DNA from: a virus
Direction: 5' to 3' (one strand)
Length of the DNA: 26,399 nt
Virus record (IMG/VR): IMGVR_UViG_3300025769_000706
Location: 1-26,399 of that record
Shown here piece by piece: positions 520-26,373 of this stretch. The notes beneath the pieces are model-generated. The model searched no databases, was not told where the DNA came from, and was given only the letters and a program-made list of their open reading frames with translations. How positions within the stretch are numbered: position 1 is the first letter of the stretch; each line of letters begins with the position of its first letter. The position numbers and the translations under genes are program-made.

Positions 520-3495
520 ATGGCTAAACCAATAAAACCTACAAAACCAACTGAACCTGCTGCGGTAGCTAAACCTGAACAAGAGTTAGGAAATAATCCC
601 GGTAATTGGGGTTGGGTGTGGAATGAATATTATACTGATCGTCCACATATGCAAGCCGCTGTTTGGAAAAATATGGTTACAGGAGAATTTAAAAAGACTC
701 CTTTTCGTGATATTCGTAATGACAAAGGTCAGATCCAGAAAAACTTACTTCATAAAGAAGGCAATGAATTTGGTGCAAAGCTTAATGAACCTTACAAAGC
801 TTGGAAATCTTTATCGAATAAGTACGATGCTTATAATAACTATGTTTCAGCCTCCGAGCAATATGAAAAAGATCTAGAAAAATACAATGAAGATGAAGCC
901 ACTTATCAAACAGAATTAGCTGCTTATATTAAAGGTTTAGAAACAGCAGCTGAAAAAGCTAAAGCAGAAGAAGAAGCTAGATTAGAAGCGGAAGAAAAAG
1001 CTAGAATTGAAGCAGAGGAAAAGGCTAGAATTGAAGCAGAAGCTGAGGCTGAAAGACTTCGTTTAGAAGCCGAAGAAGCAGCTAAAGCAGAGGCTGAACG
1101 TCTTAGGCTTGAAGAAGAGGCTAAACTAAAAGCCGAAGAAGAAGCTAAAGCAGAGGCTGAACGTCTTAGGCTTGAAGAAGAAACACGTAAAGCTGAAGAA
1201 GCTCGTAGAGCTAAAGAAGAAGAAGATGCTAGAATAGCTGCAGAAAAAGCTAGACGTACTGCAGAAGCACAAAAAGTTGCTCAAGATAGAATAGAAGGTC
1301 GTAGACCAGAAACATATACCCCTTACTCAGGTGAAGGTGCTTCTACTTATGACCCTCCCGGATATGAAGTTGGTGAAGCTGCCCCTTTATCTGGACCTAC
1401 AAGTGCTCCTTCAAGCACTGCAGATATGCCTTCACAAGTATTTTCTCCTCAATATATTCAAGGTGCTGTACCACAAACGGTATCACTTCCTTCAGATACA
1501 ACAACAGGAATGAGTCAAACAGTTATGTATTCAAATGAATTAGGACAACAAATACCTGTTACAGAAATTGATGGTAAAGCTGTAACATACGTACCACCGG
1601 GATACTCTAAAATGGGTATGGCACAAGGTGGATCAGTTGGTTATGCTGAAGGTGGAGACACTAATTTAAATGCTAAGTATAAACTAGCAACTAAGTTTTT
1701 AGGTTACAAAGGTCCAAAAACTGAAGCTGGACTTAATGACTTTGCTAAATCTAATCCCGCAGTAGCTGCTCGTATGGGTATGTATGAACAAGCTATGGCA
1801 AAAGGTGGTATGGTTCGTGGTTTGCAAGAGGGTGGTGATAATATTAGTTACACAAGTGGTGTGATTCCAATGTTTTCCTCAGCTTTAAGACAAACATTTC
1901 AACCTATGCAAGCTCCTGTATCTTATATTAGACCAACAGATGGTCAATTTATATCTCCTTATGCAGGTCAAGTGTATGGTCAAGCACCAACTACTACAGC
2001 TGCAACGGTAGGACAAGTATCTCAAGCTCAAGCACCTACATATGTTCCAGCTTCTACTTATCAAGCAGGTACAGTTAGTCCTTATGTTCAAGCACAAACT
2101 GCAGCTATGCCTAATGTCTATGGAACAATTCGCCCCGGAGCACAAATAGATGCAGCCCAACAAAACAAATCTGCAGTATCAGATCTTGAAGCTGCTCAAG
2201 GTGCAGCTTTTACTATGCAGAATCCTACACAACGGGAGTTGCAAGATGGTGAATTAATTAGTGGTGTGGCAGACGCTGCTAAAGCCGCTAAGTTTACTGA
2301 ACAGATTGAGGCTGCTCAAGCTACCCCAAGCAAACAAGCCACTGTACAAGGCCAATTAGAGGGTCTTATGCAACAGTTTGAAGGTGGTGATACACCTGCA
2401 TGGGCTGCTGGTGCAATGCGTAATGCTATGGGTGCTATGGCTGCTCGTGGATTAGGTGCTAGTAGTCTTGCTGGTCAAGCTGTTGTGCAAGCTGCAATGG
2501 AATCTGCTTTACCTATTGCTCAAGCTGATGCACAAACAGTTGCATCTTTTGAAGCTCAGAACTTGTCAAACCGTCAACAACGTGCTATGCTTGCGGCACA
2601 ACAACGTGCTCAGTTTATGGGTCAAGAGTTTGACCAAGCATTCCAAGCTCGTGTTCAGAACTCAGCACGTATTGGTGATATTGCTAATATGAACTTTACT
2701 GCAGAGCAAAACATAGCTCTTGAAAATTCTCGTGCAGTAAATACTATGCGCTTGTCAAACTTAAATAATCGTCAAGCTATGGTAATGGCAGAAGCTGCTG
2801 CATTGTCGCAACTTGATATGGCTAATTTAAGTAATAGACAACAAGCTGCAGTACAGAATGCTCAGAACTTCTTAGCTATGGATATGGCTAACCTTGATAG
2901 AAAACAACAATCTGCAATGTTTAGAACGCAACAAAACATTCAAGCTTTGTTTACAGATCAAGCTGCTGAAAATGCTGCAGCACAATTTAATGCTGCTAAT
3001 GAAAATCAAACCAGACAATTCTTTTCATCTTTGTCTGCACAAACTTCACAGTTTAATGCCTCACAAACTAATGCAATTAATCAATTTAATGTAAACTCTA
3101 TTAATGCTATTCGTGAGTTTAACTCTAACTTGCAACAACAACGTGATACATTTAATGCTACAAATAGTTTAGTAGTAGCTCAAGCTAATGCTCAGTGGAG
3201 ACAGAATATTGCAACTTTAAATACTGCTGCTCAAAATGAAAGCAATAGAGAGTTTGCTGCTACTATTAATGCTATGACTTCTAAAAATATTGACGCAGTT
3301 TGGCAACGTGAACGTGACCTAATGAGTTATAACTTTACTTCAGCTGAATCAGCTAAAGACAGAGCTATGCAAATTCTTTTAGGTGAGCAAACATTAGAAG
3401 CATTAAAAGAAAAAATAGGCTACGCAGAAGATTCTGCAAAAACAGAGTTTATTACTAGGTTTTTGTTTGGTGACTTCGGTGGGATATTCGGATAA
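520..3495 (+). CDS. Large coiled-coil and Gln/Asn-rich virion protein
   Basis: The protein has 991 residues. An N-terminal globular part (about 25-110, Trp/Tyr-rich) is followed by a highly charged Glu/Ala/Lys/Arg coiled coil at about 110-256 that contains a 21-residue tandem repeat. A Pro/Ser/Thr/Tyr-rich linker (260-370) comes next. Two Gly-rich motifs follow, MAQGGSVGYAEGG and, some 60 residues later, MAKGGMVRGLQEGG; such motifs recur in marine phage virion proteins. From about 680 to the end there is a Gln/Asn/Ala-rich helical region with repeated motifs such as NLSNRQQ and NLDRKQQ. It lies between a membrane protein and a lysozyme in the late operon, so a structural, tail or ejected role is inferred. 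No enzymatic motif is visible. Confidence 0.8.
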   Translation: MAKPIKPTKPTEPAAVAKPEQELGNNPGNWGWVWNEYYTDRPHMQAAVWKNMVTGEFKKTPFRDIRNDKGQIQKNLLHKEGNEFGAKLNEPYKAWKSLSNKYDAYNNYVSASEQYEKDLEKYNEDEATYQTELAAYIKGLETAAEKAKAEEEARLEAEEKARIEAEEKARIEAEAEAERLRLEAEEAAKAEAERLRLEEEAKLKAEEEAKAEAERLRLEEETRKAEEARRAKEEEDARIAAEKARRTAEAQKVAQDRIEGRRPETYTPYSGEGASTYDPPGYEVGEAAPLSGPTSAPSSTADMPSQVFSPQYIQGAVPQTVSLPSDTTTGMSQTVMYSNELGQQIPVTEIDGKAVTYVPPGYSKMGMAQGGSVGYAEGGDTNLNAKYKLATKFLGYKGPKTEAGLNDFAKSNPAVAARMGMYEQAMAKGGMVRGLQEGGDNISYTSGVIPMFSSALRQTFQPMQAPVSYIRPTDGQFISPYAGQVYGQAPTTTAATVGQVSQAQAPTYVPASTYQAGTVSPYVQAQTAAMPNVYGTIRPGAQIDAAQQNKSAVSDLEAAQGAAFTMQNPTQRELQDGELISGVADAAKAAKFTEQIEAAQATPSKQATVQGQLEGLMQQFEGGDTPAWAAGAMRNAMGAMAARGLGASSLAGQAVVQAAMESALPIAQADAQTVASFEAQNLSNRQQRAMLAAQQRAQFMGQEFDQAFQARVQNSARIGDIANMNFTAEQNIALENSRAVNTMRLSNLNNRQAMVMAEAAALSQLDMANLSNRQQAAVQNAQNFLAMDMANLDRKQQSAMFRTQQNIQALFTDQAAENAAAQFNAANENQTRQFFSSLSAQTSQFNASQTNAINQFNVNSINAIREFNSNLQQQRDTFNATNSLVVAQANAQWRQNIATLNTAAQNESNREFAATINAMTSKNIDAVWQRERDLMSYNFTSAESAKDRAMQILLGEQTLEALKEKIGYAEDSAKTEFITRFLFGDFGGIFG
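1081..1181 (+). repeat. Tandem direct repeat inside the coiled-coil coding region
   Basis: A stretch of about 38 bases at 1081-1118 recurs identically at 1144-1181. The 63-base offset equals 21 codons. The encoded unit contains AEAERLRLEEE. The identity at DNA level, including synonymous positions, indicates a recent in-frame duplication rather than only protein-level constraint. Confidence 0.85.
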
Positions 3496-20420: not shown

Positions 20421-20586
20421 ACGGATAACCATGATATCTTTGTTCGTATTCTATTTCAAACCTTGCGTTGTTTGCAAGTAAAAATAATACCTGAGCTAAT
20501 TCATCTGCATATTCATCAATCAGTTGACCCTCTTGAAAACATGTAGCCCAATGCTCAAACACTTCTGGTGGTACTAGTCTTTTCAT
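20401..20586 (-). CDS. Small hypothetical protein
   Basis: The protein has 61 residues, acidic and helical (VFEHWATCFQEGQLIDEYADELAQ is helix-forming), ending with a Tyr/His-rich tail (YHGYPYDNTIH). Its start is in an ATGA overlap with the integrase stop and has AAGGAG upstream. No family is recognised. It would be co-transcribed with the integrase. Confidence 0.6.
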   Translation of the reverse strand: MKRLVPPEVFEHWATCFQEGQLIDEYADELAQVLFLLANNARFEIEYEQRYHGYPYDNTIH

Positions 20587-21686
20587 TTCTTTCTCCTTTC
20601 TAGTGCAGACTTAGCTGCAGCATAAGTATGCTTATGGTATGGATTAAGTGACGAGATATTCTGATGTCCTGTCACTGACATAATAGCTAGATGATCTACC
20701 TCTGAGTCGATCATTTCTACGATAGCACTCTTTCTTAAATCTCCAACACGCAAATCAGATGGTAGTCCTGCAGCTTCTTTTATTTGATTAGCGAGTACCG
20801 ATACCTGACCAATATTTAACGGCCTGTAAGCACCATCTGATGGCCTCTGGTGTGGTACTACATAGTCTTGGAAGTCCCAATCTTTTTTCTGCTGAGTGAG
20901 CATCTCCATAATCTCATCAGAGATTGGTAGCTCTACCTCTGCACCACGTTTAGTTTGTTTTATTTTAACTCTTTTATCTTTAAAATTAATTGAAGACCAC
21001 TTTAATAATCTTATATCAGTAGGTCTTTGTGCCCACTCATAGCACATCAAAACAATTAATCCTACATTACGCCAATCAAAATCAGTGAATGCAGTATCAA
21101 GAAACTTTTCTACTTGTTCCTGTGTCCATGTTGTATTCCTTGTTTCATGTTTTCTCTTACGAACTTTGGACATAGGGTTATACATAATTAAATCAATAGA
21201 TATACAAAAATTTATTAATAATGAAAAAATTCTTGCACACTGATTCCCTTTAGACACACTAACACTTTCACACCACTCTTCGTAAGCTTCAGTACAATGC
21301 ATAGCAGTAAGATCTTTTATTTTAATAGCACCTAATTTTTTATTATTAATACTTGTATTAGCAATCGCATCCATAGTGCTATCGTAAGTTCTTTGTGAGT
21401 TATATGCCAACTCTCTAAAGTGTGTAGTTGTTACATAGTATTTATAAATCTGTAATATCGTAGAGTTAGGCCCAATATTTCCTGCGACAATATCCCCACG
21501 TCTAAAGGCTTCCACCTTTTCTACTAGTCTAGGTATCTCATACCTAGCAGCCCTACCATCACGAAAGGTTTGTCTTTGTACGACACCAGAATCAATAGCA
21601 TCTTGAGGTGGTACAAATTTCCATGCAGTACCACTCTTTAAGGTTACTTTTTTAGTATATTTATACATAGTATTTATAATCCTCAT
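20583..21686 (-). CDS. int: Tyrosine recombinase (phage integrase)
   Basis: The protein has 367 residues. An N-terminal DNA-binding region includes a SAM-like segment (75-170), followed by the catalytic domain with R221 (AQRPTDIRLLKW), K246 (QTKRG), R318 (GDLRKSA), H341 (TGHQ) and nucleophile Y350 (NPYHKHT). The His normally three residues before the second Arg is replaced by G315. It would insert the phage at a host attachment site or excise it. Two starts are possible: 21686 (no clear ribosome binding site) and 21668 (GAGG 12 bases upstream). The second fits the promoter at 21704-21733 better because the first would leave a leader of only about ten bases. Confidence 0.9.
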   Translation of the reverse strand: MRIINTMYKYTKKVTLKSGTAWKFVPPQDAIDSGVVQRQTFRDGRAARYEIPRLVEKVEAFRRGDIVAGNIGPNSTILQIYKYYVTTTHFRELAYNSQRTYDSTMDAIANTSINNKKLGAIKIKDLTAMHCTEAYEEWCESVSVSKGNQCARIFSLLINFCISIDLIMYNPMSKVRKRKHETRNTTWTQEQVEKFLDTAFTDFDWRNVGLIVLMCYEWAQRPTDIRLLKWSSINFKDKRVKIKQTKRGAEVELPISDEIMEMLTQQKKDWDFQDYVVPHQRPSDGAYRPLNIGQVSVLANQIKEAAGLPSDLRVGDLRKSAIVEMIDSEVDHLAIMSVTGHQNISSLNPYHKHTYAAAKSALERRKK

Positions 21687-22736: not shown

Positions 22737-22759
22737 CATTCTCGGAAATTCCGTGATTA
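22737..22759 (-). repeat. Junction dyad repeat, copy A
   Basis: Minus strand: TAATCACGGA, then ATT, then TCCGAGAATG. It begins with the TAA stop of the DUF932 gene and ends just before AAAGGA, the ribosome binding site of the next gene. Its inner part CGGAATTTCCG is palindromic. Confidence 0.85.
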
Positions 22760-23596
22760 AGCTGCTAGTAAAAAGCGATCATCGCTAACCCACTTAGATA
22801 CCTCCTGTTCTCTACCCCACATTGAGGTAGCTTGTGTGTCATTACCTGTATTACGCAGATTAAAACCATTACGATTATCTGCATAAGATGCATAGTTAGT
22901 GAAGGCAGAGTACAAGGCCCACTTGTTTTCCCCACGAGTAAATGCTTCTGAACGGTATAGCTGATACATCTTCTTAGCTTTACGTTCTGATGGTATCATT
23001 GCTTCTAGCAATGCCTCTACATCTACATCTTTGAGACTAGTCTGCGCCCATGTTTTCATCTTGATAGACTGTTCATAAAAGTCAGACCGCAAATTAGATA
23101 GCTCATTTATGAATGAACTAAGTGAGAAATTAGAAGTGTTCTTCCTGCGAATCTTATCGTGATCACCACGTATACATCCATTGGTACAAAAGAAATCAAT
23201 AGCACCAAAGAATACCTGATTAGAGCATGACCCGTCAATACCATGTAATGATATAATACGATTACCTATCTCAGTTTCATGTCGATCAGTTTCTATTACA
23301 GTCTTCATGCTAGGTAGTGTGATGTCGAGCATAGCCCAAGCACCACCACGAGCAGTTCTGAAGTTAAACTCTGCATTATGTAAATCACCTTCTTGTAACT
23401 CCTGAGTCGCAGTGTCTACGACATTACGAAAGAAATCACCATGATTGGCGCAAGTAAAATCCTTACCAACAATACCAAGGTATTCACCTGTATTAGCATT
23501 GATTACATACTTCTTGTCTTTGAATTTAGTTTCCTCGAACTCTACTTCAAAGTCCAAGTGCTCTGGTACGAATGATGTTGTTGTATCAAATGGCAT
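22757..23596 (-). CDS. DUF932-like phage/plasmid protein
   Basis: The protein has 279 residues. It contains the DUF932 type of centre: IISLHGIDGSCSNQVFFGA, then IDFFCTNGCIRG, then a charged helix. These proteins are widespread on plasmids and phages and are of unproven function; an anti-restriction or DNA-related role has been discussed but not shown here. The start has a strong AAAAGGAG. The stop TAA is the first three bases of dyad copy A. It is the largest gene in the accessory block. Confidence 0.75.
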   Translation of the reverse strand: MPFDTTTSFVPEHLDFEVEFEETKFKDKKYVINANTGEYLGIVGKDFTCANHGDFFRNVVDTATQELQEGDLHNAEFNFRTARGGAWAMLDITLPSMKTVIETDRHETEIGNRIISLHGIDGSCSNQVFFGAIDFFCTNGCIRGDHDKIRRKNTSNFSLSSFINELSNLRSDFYEQSIKMKTWAQTSLKDVDVEALLEAMIPSERKAKKMYQLYRSEAFTRGENKWALYSAFTNYASYADNRNGFNLRNTGNDTQATSMWGREQEVSKWVSDDRFLLAA

Positions 23597-23609
23597 TAGT
23601 CTTCTCCTT

Positions 23610-23774
23610 TTACTCTACTTCCATTTCAGTTATAAATTCTAAAGCTTCTTCTTCATCTGCACTTTCAGTGTAATACGCCCAGAGATCTTCTTGGACGTAA
23701 TTAATTAACTGATCTATATCTAAACTGTCTGTCCATTTAGTTATAGCTTCTTCAAGTTTATCTTCGATATCCAT
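23610..23774 (-). CDS. Small acidic protein
   Basis: The protein has 54 residues and is strongly acidic (MDIEDKLEEAITKWTDSLD, then EDLWAYYTESADEEEALEF). The ATG chosen follows AAAGGAG by six bases, right after dyad copy B; an open frame continues upstream through the dyad but would overlap the preceding gene and lacks a better start. DNA mimicry or protein-protein inhibition is possible for such acidic phage proteins, but this is speculation. Confidence 0.65.
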   Translation of the reverse strand: MDIEDKLEEAITKWTDSLDIDQLINYVQEDLWAYYTESADEEEALEFITEMEVE

Positions 23775-23786
23775 ATCGACTCCTTT

Positions 23787-23809
23787 CATTCTCGGAAATT
23801 CCGTGATTA
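23787..23809 (-). repeat. Junction dyad repeat, copy B
   Basis: Identical to copy A over all 23 bases. Its TAA is the stop of the Cys-rich gene, and it ends next to AAAGGAG, the ribosome binding site of the 54-residue acidic protein. Confidence 0.85.
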
Positions 23810-24505
23810 GTGTTCTGATAGATGCACAATTTGTGTGCGGTTGATCGTCTTTTGTGCAAAGCAACCTGCCTTGCAGTCTTTGCAGTGACCCTTGAGATTC
23901 TTGTGAGTCTTAGGGCATAGGAACATTCTTGTTCCATAGACAGGATCAGATGTCAAGTCATCATCACCATAGAACATAATATTCCAATCATCATCAATCA
24001 ACATTTTCCATTCAGCTTTGCTGTTGGATGGGTCGAGTGATGCATTAATAGCACAGTTAGGTAGAGGCATAAGCTCTTTCTCAATCAGAGCTTTGAGGCG
24101 TGGATTACGCCATGCTCTGGTAGGAATCCACCATGTAGTATCCGGGTTAAGTAGGCACATAGTCTTGACACGGTACACATCAATTACATCTTTGAAGGCT
24201 TCGCCTCGTGTCATGTGACGAACACGACTAGTATCGTACCGTTTACGACTAAAAAATTTAGTAAAATCAGAGTTAGACTTGTTTAGTTTCTGCCAGATAG
24301 TTTCGCATCTGTCATCACGTTTAGCCATGTTAGGGTACAACTTGTATAACTTAACGTTATAACATGTGTCATCACAGTAATCTGTACGGTGGTCACAAGA
24401 ACCAGTGTGGTTCTCAGTATCATTTATCGGTCTGTCTGTTGCAGCCATGCCTATGTCGGCACAGTATCTGAATAGATCATTCATTTCTTGTGTTGATAAA
24501 GTCAT
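23807..24505 (-). CDS. Cys-rich phage protein, possibly GP88-like
   Basis: The protein has 232 residues. A Cys-rich N-terminal segment (SCDHRTDYCDDTCYN) is followed by VRHMTRGEAFKDVIDVY, NPDTTWWIPTRAWRNPRLK and PNCAINASLDPSN. A second Cys cluster lies near the C-terminus (CPKTHKNLKGHCKDCKAGC). The order CxxxCYN, R..GE, W-x-x-T/A-R, PN..I-x-x-S recalls the phage GP88/DUF7227 family, whose function is unknown; the assignment is by memory of the pattern. The Cys clusters probably bind zinc or iron-sulfur. The start codon lies in dyad copy C, which also supplies its GGAG ribosome binding site. Confidence 0.65.
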   Translation of the reverse strand: MTLSTQEMNDLFRYCADIGMAATDRPINDTENHTGSCDHRTDYCDDTCYNVKLYKLYPNMAKRDDRCETIWQKLNKSNSDFTKFFSRKRYDTSRVRHMTRGEAFKDVIDVYRVKTMCLLNPDTTWWIPTRAWRNPRLKALIEKELMPLPNCAINASLDPSNSKAEWKMLIDDDWNIMFYGDDDLTSDPVYGTRMFLCPKTHKNLKGHCKDCKAGCFAQKTINRTQIVHLSEH

Positions 24506-24525
24506 TCTCGGAATCTCCGTGATTG
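24503..24525 (-). repeat. Junction dyad repeat, copy C (variant)
   Basis: Minus strand: CAATCACGGA, then GAT, then TCCGAGAATG. It differs from the others in two places: its first base (C) and a change that creates GGAG nine bases before the ATG at its end. That ATG is the start of the following gene, and the previous stop lies eleven bases upstream. Confidence 0.8.
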
Positions 24526-24535
24526 GATGTTTCGT

Positions 24536-24928
24536 TTAAGTTCTGAACACCTTTATGACAGGTTTATTTTGTTTGTCAATATACAAATAAGCAACCTCGG
24601 CATGGTAGATCGGCTCATCGTGCTCATCTACAAATGTGTTCGCATGATATGGGTTATACCTGACACGCTCAAGCCTGTCTATGTCAGGATCATGGGCATA
24701 GTCTGGGTCTTGAAACCATAGATCAGCATCCACCTCAATGCTTTGAGGTCTAACAAACGCATGTACATTCTTGACCTGCTCATCCTGAGTCTTTGCCCAT
24801 CCTGCAGGTTGCACTGCAAAGACAGGCTTATGTGCTATGATACTATTAGTATGCCATTGAACCTTACCGTTTCTTTTCCTTACAGAAAAGACATGCTTGT
24901 GTAGGTTATAATATATCTCGGTCTTCAT
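24536..24928 (-). CDS. Conserved hypothetical phage protein
   Basis: The protein has 130 residues from the ATG preceded by GGAG six bases upstream (an in-frame ATG inside dyad copy D would add four residues). It begins MKTEIYYNLHKHVFSVRKR, contains KNVHAFVRPQSI, and ends in strands (AEVAYLYIDKQNKPVIKVF). The opening YNLHKHVFSVR with KNVHAFV is, from memory, a recurring pattern in phages of alphaproteobacteria. Beta-rich; no catalytic motif. Confidence 0.7.
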   Translation of the reverse strand: MKTEIYYNLHKHVFSVRKRNGKVQWHTNSIIAHKPVFAVQPAGWAKTQDEQVKNVHAFVRPQSIEVDADLWFQDPDYAHDPDIDRLERVRYNPYHANTFVDEHDEPIYHAEVAYLYIDKQNKPVIKVFRT

Positions 24929-24937
24929 TTGATTCTC

Positions 24938-24960
24938 CATTCTCGGAATTTCCGTGATTA
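24938..24960 (-). repeat. Junction dyad repeat, copy D
   Basis: Minus strand: TAATCACGGA, then AAT, then TCCGAGAATG. It differs from copies A and B in the central base only. Its TAA is the stop of the 132-residue gene, and the trailing ATGGAG forms part of the next ribosome binding site. Confidence 0.85.
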
Positions 24961-25356
24961 CAATTTGCTGCCTAAGACTAGCTCTCGTGATAGCTCATGC
25001 CAGCCAGTAGGCATACATAGATACGCCTTGTTCTGCTGCAAGTGTACAATTATATTACCTACAGACAGGCTAGTGTCACCCTTAGCAAGGGTGGTAACTT
25101 TAGCTTTACCATAGCCATTCCCTGCATCAAAGACAGCCTCTAGTGGGTCAACAGATTCAGATAGCACACCTAGATGCAGGAACTTGGTTGGATAATACAT
25201 GTTATGAAACAAAGCATCATTAACACTCTGTTCTGCAGACTTCTCATTAAGAAGTCTTAGATCAAAAGCAATCCTTGCTATCTCTGATTGAGGGTTCTCA
25301 TTAATTATGTCATAGACTTCTGGTCTGAACTGATAGACGAGGTAGGATCTGGACAT
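24958..25356 (-). CDS. Hypothetical protein
   Basis: The protein has 132 residues and is mixed alpha/beta. Segments: SYLVYQFRPEVYDII, a helix (SEIARIAFDLRLLNE), a Gly-rich turn (FDAGNGYGKAKVTTLAKGDTS) and strands (VGNIIVHLQQNKAYLC). GGAG eight bases before ATG supports the start. The stop is the first codon of dyad copy D. No family is recognised. Confidence 0.7.
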   Translation of the reverse strand: MSRSYLVYQFRPEVYDIINENPQSEIARIAFDLRLLNEKSAEQSVNDALFHNMYYPTKFLHLGVLSESVDPLEAVFDAGNGYGKAKVTTLAKGDTSLSVGNIIVHLQQNKAYLCMPTGWHELSRELVLGSKL

Positions 25357-25508
25357 TGGCTTAACTCCTTGTTGCCATTAATTTCCTTAGTTCTGTCACA
25401 GGATGAAACAGATGTCAAGGGTTTTGTTTTGAATAGCATCTGTCGATGCCATATAGACCGCCAATATTTGTCGGCACGTAGTGATTGTCTGTCACGTTTA
25501 CTCTTCAT
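25305..25508 (-). CDS. Possible small basic protein (doubtful)
   Basis: A 67-residue frame starts at an ATG with GGAG six bases upstream and overlaps the end of the upstream gene by eleven bases. Its first half (MKSKRDRQSLRADKYWRSIW) is basic and could be a real small protein; the second half is low-complexity and overlaps the next gene start by 52 bases, more than any other pair here. Alternatively the 141-base interval 25357-25497 is a regulatory gap with the promoter-like TTGACA at 25413. Confidence 0.3.
   Translation of the reverse strand: MKSKRDRQSLRADKYWRSIWHRQMLFKTKPLTSVSSCDRTKEINGNKELSQCPDPTSSISSDQKSMT
25390..25418 (-). promoter_or_regulatory. Candidate promoter with consensus -35
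   Basis: A perfect -35 TTGACA (25413-25418, minus strand) is followed after 17 bases by CAGAAC (25390-25395), a poor -10. It lies in the 141-base gap before the gene at 24958-25356. Alphaproteobacterial -10 elements can be degenerate, so it is only a candidate. Confidence 0.3.
25467..25480 (-). repeat. Short repeat TACGTGCCGACAAA
   Basis: This 14-base sequence matches 26307-26320 at 13 of 14 positions. Both copies lie on the minus strand in gaps between confident genes. Confidence 0.35.
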
Positions 25509-25737
25509 CCTCATCTCCACACATAGCATCCCATTCTTCAGGACTGATACCTGTCTTAATAAATTCACGTTGCTCGGCATCTAAGTTAGGCATTACATTT
25601 TGAATCAGTTCACCTGATTGTAGCCAGTATTCTATCTTACCTTGAGTCGTAGGTAAAACCATAGAGTTTACCTTACCTGAAAGCATAGACTTCTTGTGAA
25701 CAAATACTTTGTTCTCTGCAATGTGTTCTATCCGCAT
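25498..25737 (-). CDS. Small conserved phage protein
   Basis: The protein has 79 residues from the ATG with GGAG six bases upstream; an earlier in-frame start overlaps the previous gene and has no ribosome binding site. It begins MRIEHIAENKVFVHKKSM and ends EFIKTGISPEEWDAMCGDEDEE. The C-terminal pattern '(F/L)xxTGxxPEEWDxM(F)G(D/E)' is, from memory, recurrent among phage small proteins of unknown function. The beginning overlaps the upstream stop by a few bases at most. Confidence 0.7.
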   Translation of the reverse strand: MRIEHIAENKVFVHKKSMLSGKVNSMVLPTTQGKIEYWLQSGELIQNVMPNLDAEQREFIKTGISPEEWDAMCGDEDEE

Positions 25738-25738
25738 G

Positions 25739-25975
25739 TCATTCTCCTTTTGCATATGCTTTTGCTTTTACCAAAGCAATTATTAATTGATCGGCATTCA
25801 TGTGTCTCACTACATCATCATAAAAATCTGATGCTTTAGTCACATCATAAAACCATAGACTTGTATTAATAAATCCATGATCATCATGTATTAGTGCTAC
25901 CTCTACTAAGCCGCCAGTATCGGCAACAATGGATAAGGTATATCCATTACCTAAATCTAAAGGTACGTTACTCAT
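25739..25975 (-). CDS. Small hypothetical protein
   Basis: The protein has 78 residues and looks like a beta-hairpin plus helices: LGNGYTLSIVADTGGLVEVALI, then SLWFYDVTKASDFYDDVVRH and MNADQLIIALVKAKAYAKGE. AAAAGGAG precedes the ATG, just downstream of dyad copy E. Its start overlaps by four bases (ATGA) the end of the small 49-residue gene that reads through that dyad. No family is recognised. Confidence 0.7.
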   Translation of the reverse strand: MSNVPLDLGNGYTLSIVADTGGLVEVALIHDDHGFINTSLWFYDVTKASDFYDDVVRHMNADQLIIALVKAKAYAKGE

Positions 25976-26121
25976 TTGATTCTCCTTTTCATTCTCGGAT
26001 TTTCCGTGATTAGTTTTGCATTACTAGGGAAACGTTTAAGTATCTTCGATATTTGACGCATGTCACGACAGGTAAGATAAGAAAACATAAACCCCTCATC
26101 ATCATAGAAACATACACGCAT
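25972..26121 (-). CDS. Small Cys/Arg-containing protein reading through dyad copy E
   Basis: The 49-residue frame begins MRVCFYDDEGFMFSYLTCRD and ends basic (RMKRRIK). GGGGG lies a few bases before the ATG, and the stop forms an ATGA overlap with the next gene. Unlike the other copies, dyad E is out of phase with the TAA and is translated in frame as LITENPRM. The two Cys and the basic end could suit a regulatory protein, but there is no recognised fold. Confidence 0.55.
   Translation of the reverse strand: MRVCFYDDEGFMFSYLTCRDMRQISKILKRFPSNAKLITENPRMKRRIK
25990..26012 (-). repeat. Junction dyad repeat, copy E
   Basis: Minus strand: TAATCACGGA, then AAA, then TCCGAGAATG. It lies inside the 3' end of the small gene and just before AAAAGGAG of the next gene. 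It has the same AAA centre as the perfect palindrome at 26353-26371. Confidence 0.85.
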
Positions 26122-26123
26122 GA

Positions 26124-26279
26124 TCACCCCCGATCAAAAGCTAAAACAGAAAGTAACATTACTACAGGTAGTAATGATAATAATATTATAGGATTAATAG
26201 TAGTATAAGCTACTATTAATAATATACTTGAAGTAGATACAAGTATTAATAACCAAGCAAAAAATAATATAAAGTTCAC
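26124..26279 (-). CDS. Small two-helix membrane protein, holin-like size
   Basis: The 51-residue frame starts at GTG with AGGAG eight bases upstream. Almost the whole length is hydrophobic: a first helix FILFFAWLLILVSTSSILL, a short polar turn around AYTTINP, and a second helix IILLSLLPVVMLLSVLAF, ending DRG. A hairpin of two TM helices in 51 residues could be a small holin, a superinfection-exclusion peptide or another membrane effector; the early position argues against a holin. The stop lies two bases before the next ATG. Confidence 0.6.
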   Translation of the reverse strand: MNFILFFAWLLILVSTSSILLIVAYTTINPIILLSLLPVVMLLSVLAFDRG

Positions 26280-26306
26280 GGCATGTACTCCTATTCTTGA
26301 TAGACT

Positions 26307-26320
26307 TTTGTCGGCATGTA
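26307..26320 (-). repeat. Short repeat TACATGCCGACAAA
   Basis: Matches 25467-25480 at 13 of 14 positions. A shorter version, TACATGCCG, recurs at 26279-26287 with a 33-base offset, about three helical turns, just ahead of the GTG start of the membrane protein. Confidence 0.35.
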
Positions 26321-26350
26321 ATTAGCTACACACATACAAAAGAAAAAAAT

Positions 26351-26373
26351 CAATCACGGATTTTCCGTGATCG
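26351..26373 (-). terminator. Perfect-palindrome dyad (copy F) with terminator features
   Basis: Arms ATCACGGA and TCCGTGAT enclose AAA (26353-26371); with a G-U and a C-G pair the RNA stem extends to ten. On the minus strand it is followed at once by ATTTTTTT, the layout of an intrinsic terminator. It shares its left arm and AAA centre with dyad copy E, so it belongs to the same repeat family. Confidence 0.6.

Follow-up and report, generated by a model that had tools for sequence, protein, structure and literature searches.

The virus record IMGVR_UViG_3300025769_000706, a fragment of an HMO-2011-like marine phage, carries in its early-gene block a repeated 17-base dyad, TCWCGGA-N3-TCCGWGA (W being A or T). 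The record was analysed over its whole length of 26.4 kb (hereafter the window), and its DNA is similar to that of HMO-2011-type Roseobacter phages, e.g. CRP-1. Arrays of this dyad, or of other dyads at the same place, occur in the early blocks of related phages, and the type of dyad goes together with the sequence of one early gene, referred to here as g1. The dyads are likely to be operators of a phage-encoded regulator working in a stoperator-like manner, with the g1 product as the probable reader.

The window was searched with the pattern ATCACGGANNNTCCGAGAAT, which gave five exact matches on the minus strand (junction copies 1-5, Table 1) and one inexact match, the symmetric leader copy, with two mismatches on the minus strand and three on the other strand (26353-26372). 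No further copies were found in the record at two mismatches. At up to three mismatches 0.04 matches are expected by chance, and a maximum of 2 was reached over 100 shuffles; the repeat is real and not due to chance. An initial annotation of the window had listed five copies and a palindromic relative, and its positions were recovered by exact or near-exact pattern matching. It had also placed the copies directly upstream of ribosome-binding sites, which was confirmed for four of the five but not for the copy at 24504, where the sole Shine-Dalgarno-like GGAG near the start falls within the element, whose 3' edge runs into the start codon. The operator at that junction seems to double as the ribosome-binding site; its GAT centre is also seen in relatives at the same junction. 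The stop codon of the upstream open reading frame (ORF) overlaps the 5' edge of the element at three of the five copies (ORFs ending at 22757, 23807 and 24958), and the small upstream ORF 25972-26127 reads through the 25991 element. The described location, a block at the right end of the window, was correct, but this is an early-gene block rather than an accessory one. It is transcribed leftward in the window and runs off its right end, where the record itself ends, and in relatives it continues with more copies and the g1 gene. Its products include DUF932, GP88-like and L5 gp82-like proteins. The annotated neighbours of the repeat fall in different families, and an origin by whole-gene duplication, already discounted in the initial annotation, was not supported.

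Exact pattern searches recovered 26 stretches from 21 contigs, and with two mismatches allowed a match was present in 21 of 22 records searched, CRP-1 being the miss. Four of the 21 exact-match contigs (G003, G005, G009 and G020) had a single copy in another context; these were treated as chance matches and dropped from the junction and leader counts of this dyad, named type A. Four long relatives (52-56 kb) carried 8, 8, 7 and 7 copies within blocks of 4.4-5.1 kb, two of the 30 copies having one mismatch. Rather than being scattered regardless of gene ends, the copies in these genomes were confined to one block, and relatives carried the dyad at the same junctions, two points on which the earlier proposal had been open to refutation. 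The initial annotation is supported in that the junction dyad is phage-specific, is conserved among related phages, resembles stoperators and probably binds a phage regulator.

The type A set comprised 18 records including the window, with 96 exact copies, some records and sites being near-identical. Using a pattern for flanking hairpins, the copies were divided into 58 of junction type and 38 beside leader hairpins. Junction copies had one orientation in 53 of 58 cases, and leader copies were sense in 8, antisense in 8 and symmetric in 22. A start codon followed 12-17 nt beyond the site at 40 of the 58 junction copies; TAA or TA preceded the site in 54, a loose criterion that was not used. 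Sites just before start codons would also suit a hairpin controlling translation or transcript ends, and in the relative L037 there is a terminator-like hairpin overlapping the symmetric leader copy. However, in 14 of 27 distinct leader contexts the bases at the two W positions would be able to pair, and in the other 13 they would not, the stem-breaking A/A and T/T combinations being about as frequent as the pairing ones. As the W bases vary independently, a DNA site with a degenerate position is favoured over a conserved RNA stem. Dyad types with centres of one or two bases cannot fully pair as RNA hairpins, and no Rfam family reached the gathering threshold in the window. An RNA element was therefore rejected as the main explanation and is considered exceedingly improbable, and the earlier suggestion of an action on mRNA is not borne out at the leader copies. 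It is highly probable that the dyad is a DNA operator of a phage regulator. The place in L037 equivalent to the symmetric leader copy (1352-1380) scores as terminator-like and the adjoining T run varies in length among relatives; on the minus strand, the symmetric copy could also be an intrinsic terminator.

De novo searches of the early blocks of relatives, fetched with the DUF932 gene as marker, revealed about ten other dyad types at the same place (Table 1). The patterns were named A-J, giving ten, or eleven if type I is split by its centre into I1 and I2. None of 349 sequences had at least two copies of two different patterns. The de novo scans detected an array at 25 of the 80 loci in one set and at 16 of the 81 in another; many of the others extend only a short way upstream of DUF932. 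At least 4 kb upstream of this gene was available in 45 distinct loci, of which 32 had at least three dyads, three had two and ten had none detected. In 36 chosen loci, 125 of 204 sites were accompanied by a Shine-Dalgarno-like sequence and ATG within 55 nt, compared with 26% of 7200 random positions, and 44 of the 204 lay within ORFs of at least 60 aa versus 74% of random positions.

Closely related phages were found to carry different dyads at shared junctions with similar flanks. Contigs L149 (type D, recovered again as L161 and L175) and L150 (type E, recovered again as L165 and L174) share 97.8% identity in DUF932, 99% in a 288-aa protein and 98% in the integrase. At three shared junctions, 55 of 55 downstream bases are identical and the 25 upstream bases are 76-96% identical, but the dyad between them is GTGTTA-N2-TAACAC in one phage and GTAACG-N1-CGTTAC in the other. 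In a second pair, L304 and L309, the sites were matched up by the similarity of their flanks, and each of the five matched sites shows differences in both half-sites; flank identity is 78-100% over the 60 downstream bases and 60-100% over the 40 upstream ones. Of seven other ORFs in this pair, four are 94-100% identical, two are 91% and 63% identical and one is unmatched, and g1 is 86% identical. L206, L209 and L212 have three different dyad types, yet are 96-97% identical in DUF932 and 95-99% in the integrase. At one junction of L212 (4846-4883) a perfect type E dyad lies 19 bases from a type J dyad. It is possibly a relic of an earlier specificity, although by count it is not beyond chance, being the one foreign dyad in 166 kb of array blocks against 0-2 per shuffled set.

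Short homologies kept at gene-cassette boundaries for the exchange of single genes by recombination were considered as another origin of the repeat. Site spacing alone suggests that the 54-aa ORF and its upstream dyad are jointly missing in several relatives (a spacing of 1567 in, for example, G002, G013 and G021 versus 716+1050 in the window). In G014 an additional 48-aa ORF begins at the ATG of junction copy 3, before the 232-aa gene (L037 3521-3667 versus window 24505), a gene insertion exactly at the element. The available text on Cluster O mycobacteriophages reports that their repeats recombined likewise (PMC4351075). This explanation leaves the dyad symmetry, the replacement between unchanged flanks and the linkage to g1 unaccounted for, and is very unlikely.

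The g1 gene is the first early ORF of appreciable size that follows the first site, encoding 185-239 aa in the examined representatives that reach far enough upstream. In CRP-1 it corresponds to gp01, and in HMO-2011 to the protein encoded at 54168-54785. The first dyad precedes it, mostly at about 120-310 bases from its start. It is absent from the cut-off window and present in close relatives. Linkage to dyad type was assessed on 33 loci having g1, DUF932 and a dyad type; types I1 and I2 were split before the test because their g1 proteins differ. In pairs with at least 85% DUF932 identity, g1 identity had a median of 80% (range 33-100, 67 pairs) where the type was the same and 24% (range 22-29, 5 pairs) where it differed. 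After regression on DUF932 identity, same-type pairs were 13.6 points higher, the largest value from 5000 label permutations being 7.7; the permutation p of 0.0002 is indicative only, as the loci are related.

Loci were additionally fetched by the g1 protein alone. For the B/F family (GTCCAA and GTCCGA dyads) the best 80 of 201 relatives were kept, 8 of these 80 contigs being already known. The expected GTCC-type dyad was present in 80/80 of these best-ranked loci, with at least three perfect copies in 76 and two in four; in L315 it was detected as TGTCCA-N4-TGGACA. The A-family fetch gave type A in 15 of 16 loci and type C in L333. New contigs were L332, L333 and L335, of which L332 and L335 are short ends with one type A copy each. 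With E/I-family g1, type E was found in four of five loci and type I in one.

The dyads might instead be read by a host regulator or by another phage protein, g1 being merely linked. This would fit the lack of a recognised DNA-binding domain in g1, and further early genes also differ between the compared phages. A shared host factor is not expected to be matched by different dyad types in phages 96-98% identical in DUF932, which makes a host regulator unlikely as the reader. The integrase was rejected as a candidate, since four close phage pairs that differ in dyad type have integrases 95-99% identical. Together with the matching dyad in all kept B/F loci, these observations leave a reader other than g1 distinctly unlikely, and it is quite likely, judging from sequence comparison, that g1 is the regulator reading the dyads.

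In GTCCAA and GTCCGA phages one dyad lies within the g1 frame, in a low-complexity linker, where it encodes SNVG or SDVG (L106 3949-3962; most of L244-L323, about +383 to +452 from the g1 start; CRP-1 428). The g1 columns distinguishing the two dyads were compared in 69 distinct B/F sequences, 7 with GTCCGA and 62 with GTCCAA. The most informative column was 133, which is encoded by the embedded dyad, followed by 117, 116, 109 and 98. Columns 109, 113, 116 and 117 all fall in a predicted helix, 108-124. Ala117 was present in 6/7 GTCCGA and 0/62 GTCCAA sequences, and column 113, ranking fourteenth, was Lys in 7/7 and 11/62, respectively. Five GTCCGA sequences have a near neighbour of the other kind, and columns 113, 116 and 117 differ in 5/5. 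A tree built with the helix region left out has five changes of the dyad base, of which well-supported branches force at least three; two of the seven GTCCGA rows are on long, unsure branches. In the A family, the type C locus L333 departs from type A at 9 of the 60 columns that type A sequences hold constant, three of them (116, 119 and 122) lying at the equivalent helix; the alignment sets K122 of A-family g1 opposite A113 of B-family g1. The helix evidence, drawn from aligned sequences, is suggestive rather than proof that the last helix of the g1 N-terminal domain reads the dyads.

Under the proposed mechanism g1 would bind, presumably as dimers, to the leader dyads and to those that shortly precede the ribosome-binding sites of early genes. 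The dyad ahead of g1 would allow autoregulation, and junction dyads could act on elongating polymerase or on local initiation. A promoter scan of one locus, L037, gave 15 matches against 17.5 in shuffles and hence no excess of promoter-like sites in the junction gaps. Binding would repress early lytic genes by acting at promoters, by halting elongation or in both ways, and would probably serve lysogeny and immunity.

Several observations weigh against this interpretation. The array was undetected in ten of the 45 comparable DUF932 loci, which slightly lowers our overall confidence. A looser scan of these ten loci was ambiguous, with counts of 9 in L131 against 3 in one shuffle and 6 against 3 in L217, the rest being nearer to their shuffles. 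The near-uniform orientation of the type A junction copies is unexplained by a symmetric operator; it may come from the overlap with stop and start codons or from common descent of the copies. One of the B/F dyads forms part of the g1 reading frame and so is no independent copy. The tree yields only three independent pairs for a pair test, which cannot reach significance, and the helix changes from type A to type C are weak (p 0.059, computed with 61 invariant columns versus 60 in the L333 count). The forward tests with the smaller families are thin, as 13 of 16 A-family and 3 of 5 E/I-family contigs were already known; the new E/I contigs L342 and L343 were both type E, L342 also having a lone type D dyad. 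L209 and L222 have the outer half-site TGTCAC in common, but no match exists between their g1 proteins, and the split into I1 and I2 was made after this mismatch was seen. The g1 gene of the type D phage lies outside its contig. No Pfam family was above cutoff for g1 and the best PHROG match had an E value of 0.0038, no repressor family of either collection being matched. Against PDB sequences, a 17-residue stretch matched designed WRAP propellers (whole-sequence E 4e-09, no stretch passing alone), alongside weak rows. Two AlphaFold models of g1 searched with Foldseek and VIA-align gave no convincing fold; the best Z values, 5.7 and 3.1, were within the range of common helical arrangements, and the best viral row was an uncharacterised phage protein (E 0.12).

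Points of the same kind concern lysogeny. No array was seen in the searched stretches of the integrase-annotated phages CRP-2, CRP-3, CRP-603 and CRP-207; for CRP-3, integration is reported in the available text of PMC9038755. No de novo dyad with at least three copies was found in the 4.7-8.0 kb parts of CRP-2, -3, -4, -13, -207, -212, -603 and -738; CRP-2 has two AACATT-N0 copies, and CRP-738 has two dyads with 5-base arms in two copies each, the counts in both phages exceeding the shuffles by one. DUF932 alignment in bacterial genomes revealed no integrated prophage and gave two loci (L242 and L243), at the same range on contigs of the same length, in two unrelated metagenome-assembled genomes. 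L242 and L243 are apparently the same 62.8-kb phage-like contig, binned in a Flavobacteriales and a Neomarinimicrobiota genome.

The array-less integrase phages and the missing array-bearing prophage would suit a regulator of the lytic cycle (timing, activation, antitermination or copy-number control) without any link to lysogeny, and sites between genes of one operon make timing control plausible. On the other side, an integrase was present in all 30 array loci with at least 2.5 kb beyond DUF932 (of the 36 chosen), which fits a temperate role but does not show it, and the rapid, coordinated shifts in specificity are reminiscent of immunity-type diversification. A purely lytic regulator is considered unlikely, and a role of the g1-dyad system in repression and immunity is evenly poised. 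That g1 represents a new family of immunity repressors within an abundant group of marine phages, with a helix outside the described DNA-binding families, about ten specificities, concerted rewriting of its operators and one operator in its own frame, is a tentative proposal that would fall just short of an even chance.

The features of the window and the other dyad types are listed in Table 1. No tRNA was found in the window. The L5 gp82-like gene possibly starts at an internal ATG.

Table 1. Positions of dyad copies and genes in the window, and dyad types detected in the early blocks of relatives
Feature	Position	Strand	Match or occurrence
Junction copy 1, centre ATT; between DUF932 gene and 93-aa ORF	22738..22757	-	
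Junction copy 2, centre ATT; between 232-aa GP88-like gene and 54-aa ORF	23788..23807	-	
Junction copy 3, centre GAT (creates internal GGAG); 3' edge overlaps start of ORF 23807-24505	24504..24523	-	
Junction copy 4, centre AAT; upstream of L5 gp82-like gene	24939..24958	-	
Junction copy 5, centre AAA; 51-aa ORF 25972-26127 passes through	25991..26010	-	
Symmetric leader copy TCACGGA-N3-TCCGTGA; T run after it on minus strand	26352..26371	.	
DUF932 gene, 279 aa, early-block marker	22757..23596	-	PHROG matches; Pfam PF06067 (E 4.5e-10) on ortholog L037:4573-5412
54-aa ORF between copies 1 and 2	23610..23774	-	
GP88-like gene, 232 aa	23807..24505	-	phrog_1392; Pfam PF17338 (E 1.5e-05) on ortholog L037:3664-4362
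Mycobacteriophage L5 gp82-like gene	24536..24940	-	phrog_586; Pfam PF25735 (E 4.8e-20) on ortholog L037:3099-3491
Tyrosine integrase, 367 aa, downstream of early block	20583..21686	-	phrog_1, 2.2e-36
Dyad type GTCCAA-N2-TTGGAC			CRP-1, CRP-345, many contigs
Dyad type GTCCGA-N2-TCGGAC			Relatives' early blocks
Dyad type AGTCCG-N4-CGGACT			Including HMO-2011
Dyad type TCATGGA-N3-TCCATGA			Relatives' early blocks
Dyad type GTGTTA-N2-TAACAC			One contig of the D/E pair L149 and L150
Dyad type GTAACG-N1-CGTTAC			Other contig of the D/E pair L149 and L150
Dyad type TTTTCA-N3-TGAAAA			Relatives' early blocks
Dyad type TTTTAC-N2-GTAAAA			Relatives' early blocks
Dyad type TGTCAC-N3-GTGACA			Relatives' early blocks; two versions by centre
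Dyad type GTGGTA-N2-TACCAC			Relatives' early blocks

Other sequence features were noted. The leader upstream of the window-equivalent block in L037 (1-1400) is dense in short hairpins of the CCCC-TAAA-GGGG and ATACTTC-TTT-GAAGTAT types, and it contains, directly before an ATG, a TTTAAATCGGAGATTTAAA hairpin whose loop holds a Shine-Dalgarno sequence. In the array-less loci L131 and L217, loosely repeated near-palindromes around GCAGCATCTGCTAC and GCACACAGGTTGTGC exceeded one shuffle; these two loci may hold further, as yet unproven, dyad types. At 945-1287 of the window, Glu/Ala/Lys-rich repeats, perhaps a coiled coil, lie within a 991-aa ORF (520-3495).

HMO-2011-type phages are described as a dominant and broadly distributed marine group in the available part of PMC9038755, whose main text names an integrase and nowhere contains 'repress'. 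None of the titles listed in literature searches on HMO-2011 aimed at such repeats or at a repressor concerned an array of this kind, and its absence from print is not claimed. If the interpretation is true, g1 would be the missing switch of these phages, and the immunity group of a metagenomic phage could be predicted from sequence through its dyad type. With the D/E and L304/L309 pairs, close relatives whose sites are exchanged, the long-standing question of how a repressor and its many operators shift specificity together becomes testable.

Comparison with known systems was based on the available parts of the cited papers. The stoperators of Cluster A mycobacteriophages (L5, Bxb1, TipsytheTRex) are likewise many copies of a short site in promoters and short intergenic gaps, mostly in one orientation, and their motif and repressor diverge together (PMC9283540, PMC6550527), as dyad and putative repressor g1 do here with the exception of L209/L222. 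As in L5, gp82- and GP88-like genes are among the sites. The resemblance to stoperators proposed in the initial annotation holds for several copies of one site in short gaps between early genes. Cluster A stoperators are, however, asymmetric and 13 bp long, and the TipsytheTRex repressor binds as a monomer (PMC9283540, PMC6550527), whereas the sites described here are dyads of 13-17 bp with up to 9 copies in one block, of which type A leader copies are mixed in orientation, unlike the junction copies, and no repressor family in Pfam or PHROGs was matched by g1. Since the sites are dyads rather than asymmetric 13-mers, they were not classed as stoperators despite the similar working proposed for them.

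The start-associated sequences (SAS) of Cluster K mycobacteriophages and their extended form (ESAS) are also repeats at the starts of non-structural genes, and the ESAS inverted repeats differ between subclusters (PMC3203893). The SAS is asymmetric, contains a Shine-Dalgarno core and is typically 3-7 bp from the start codon (PMC3203893). In the strict sense this analogy, also drawn in the initial annotation, fails, given the 12-17 nt that separate most type A junction copies from the start and a Shine-Dalgarno-like sequence in only one of the five window copies.

The closest formal match is the Cluster O repeat, a 17-bp dyad, TGTTCGG-N3-CCGAACA, of unknown function, suggested as a site of dimeric proteins, with no reader named in the available text (PMC4351075); it shares with type A the 7-bp arms, the variable 3-bp centre and the often intergenic position. 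It differs in sequence and is present in more than 30 copies genome-wide, about one third of them in coding regions, in phages without integrase (PMC4351075), in contrast to the 7-8 copies in one block of the four long relatives. A precedent for a repeated phage element preceding the discovery of its repressor is the SPbeta repeated element (SPBRE) of the Bacillus prophage SPbeta. This repeated intergenic 15-bp element was predicted in silico long before the master repressor MrpR was known, and was identified as the MrpR site by chromatin affinity purification sequencing (ChAP-seq; PMC10516654). MrpR has a tyrosine-recombinase fold (PMC10516654), whereas the integrase of the phages studied here does not track the dyad type.

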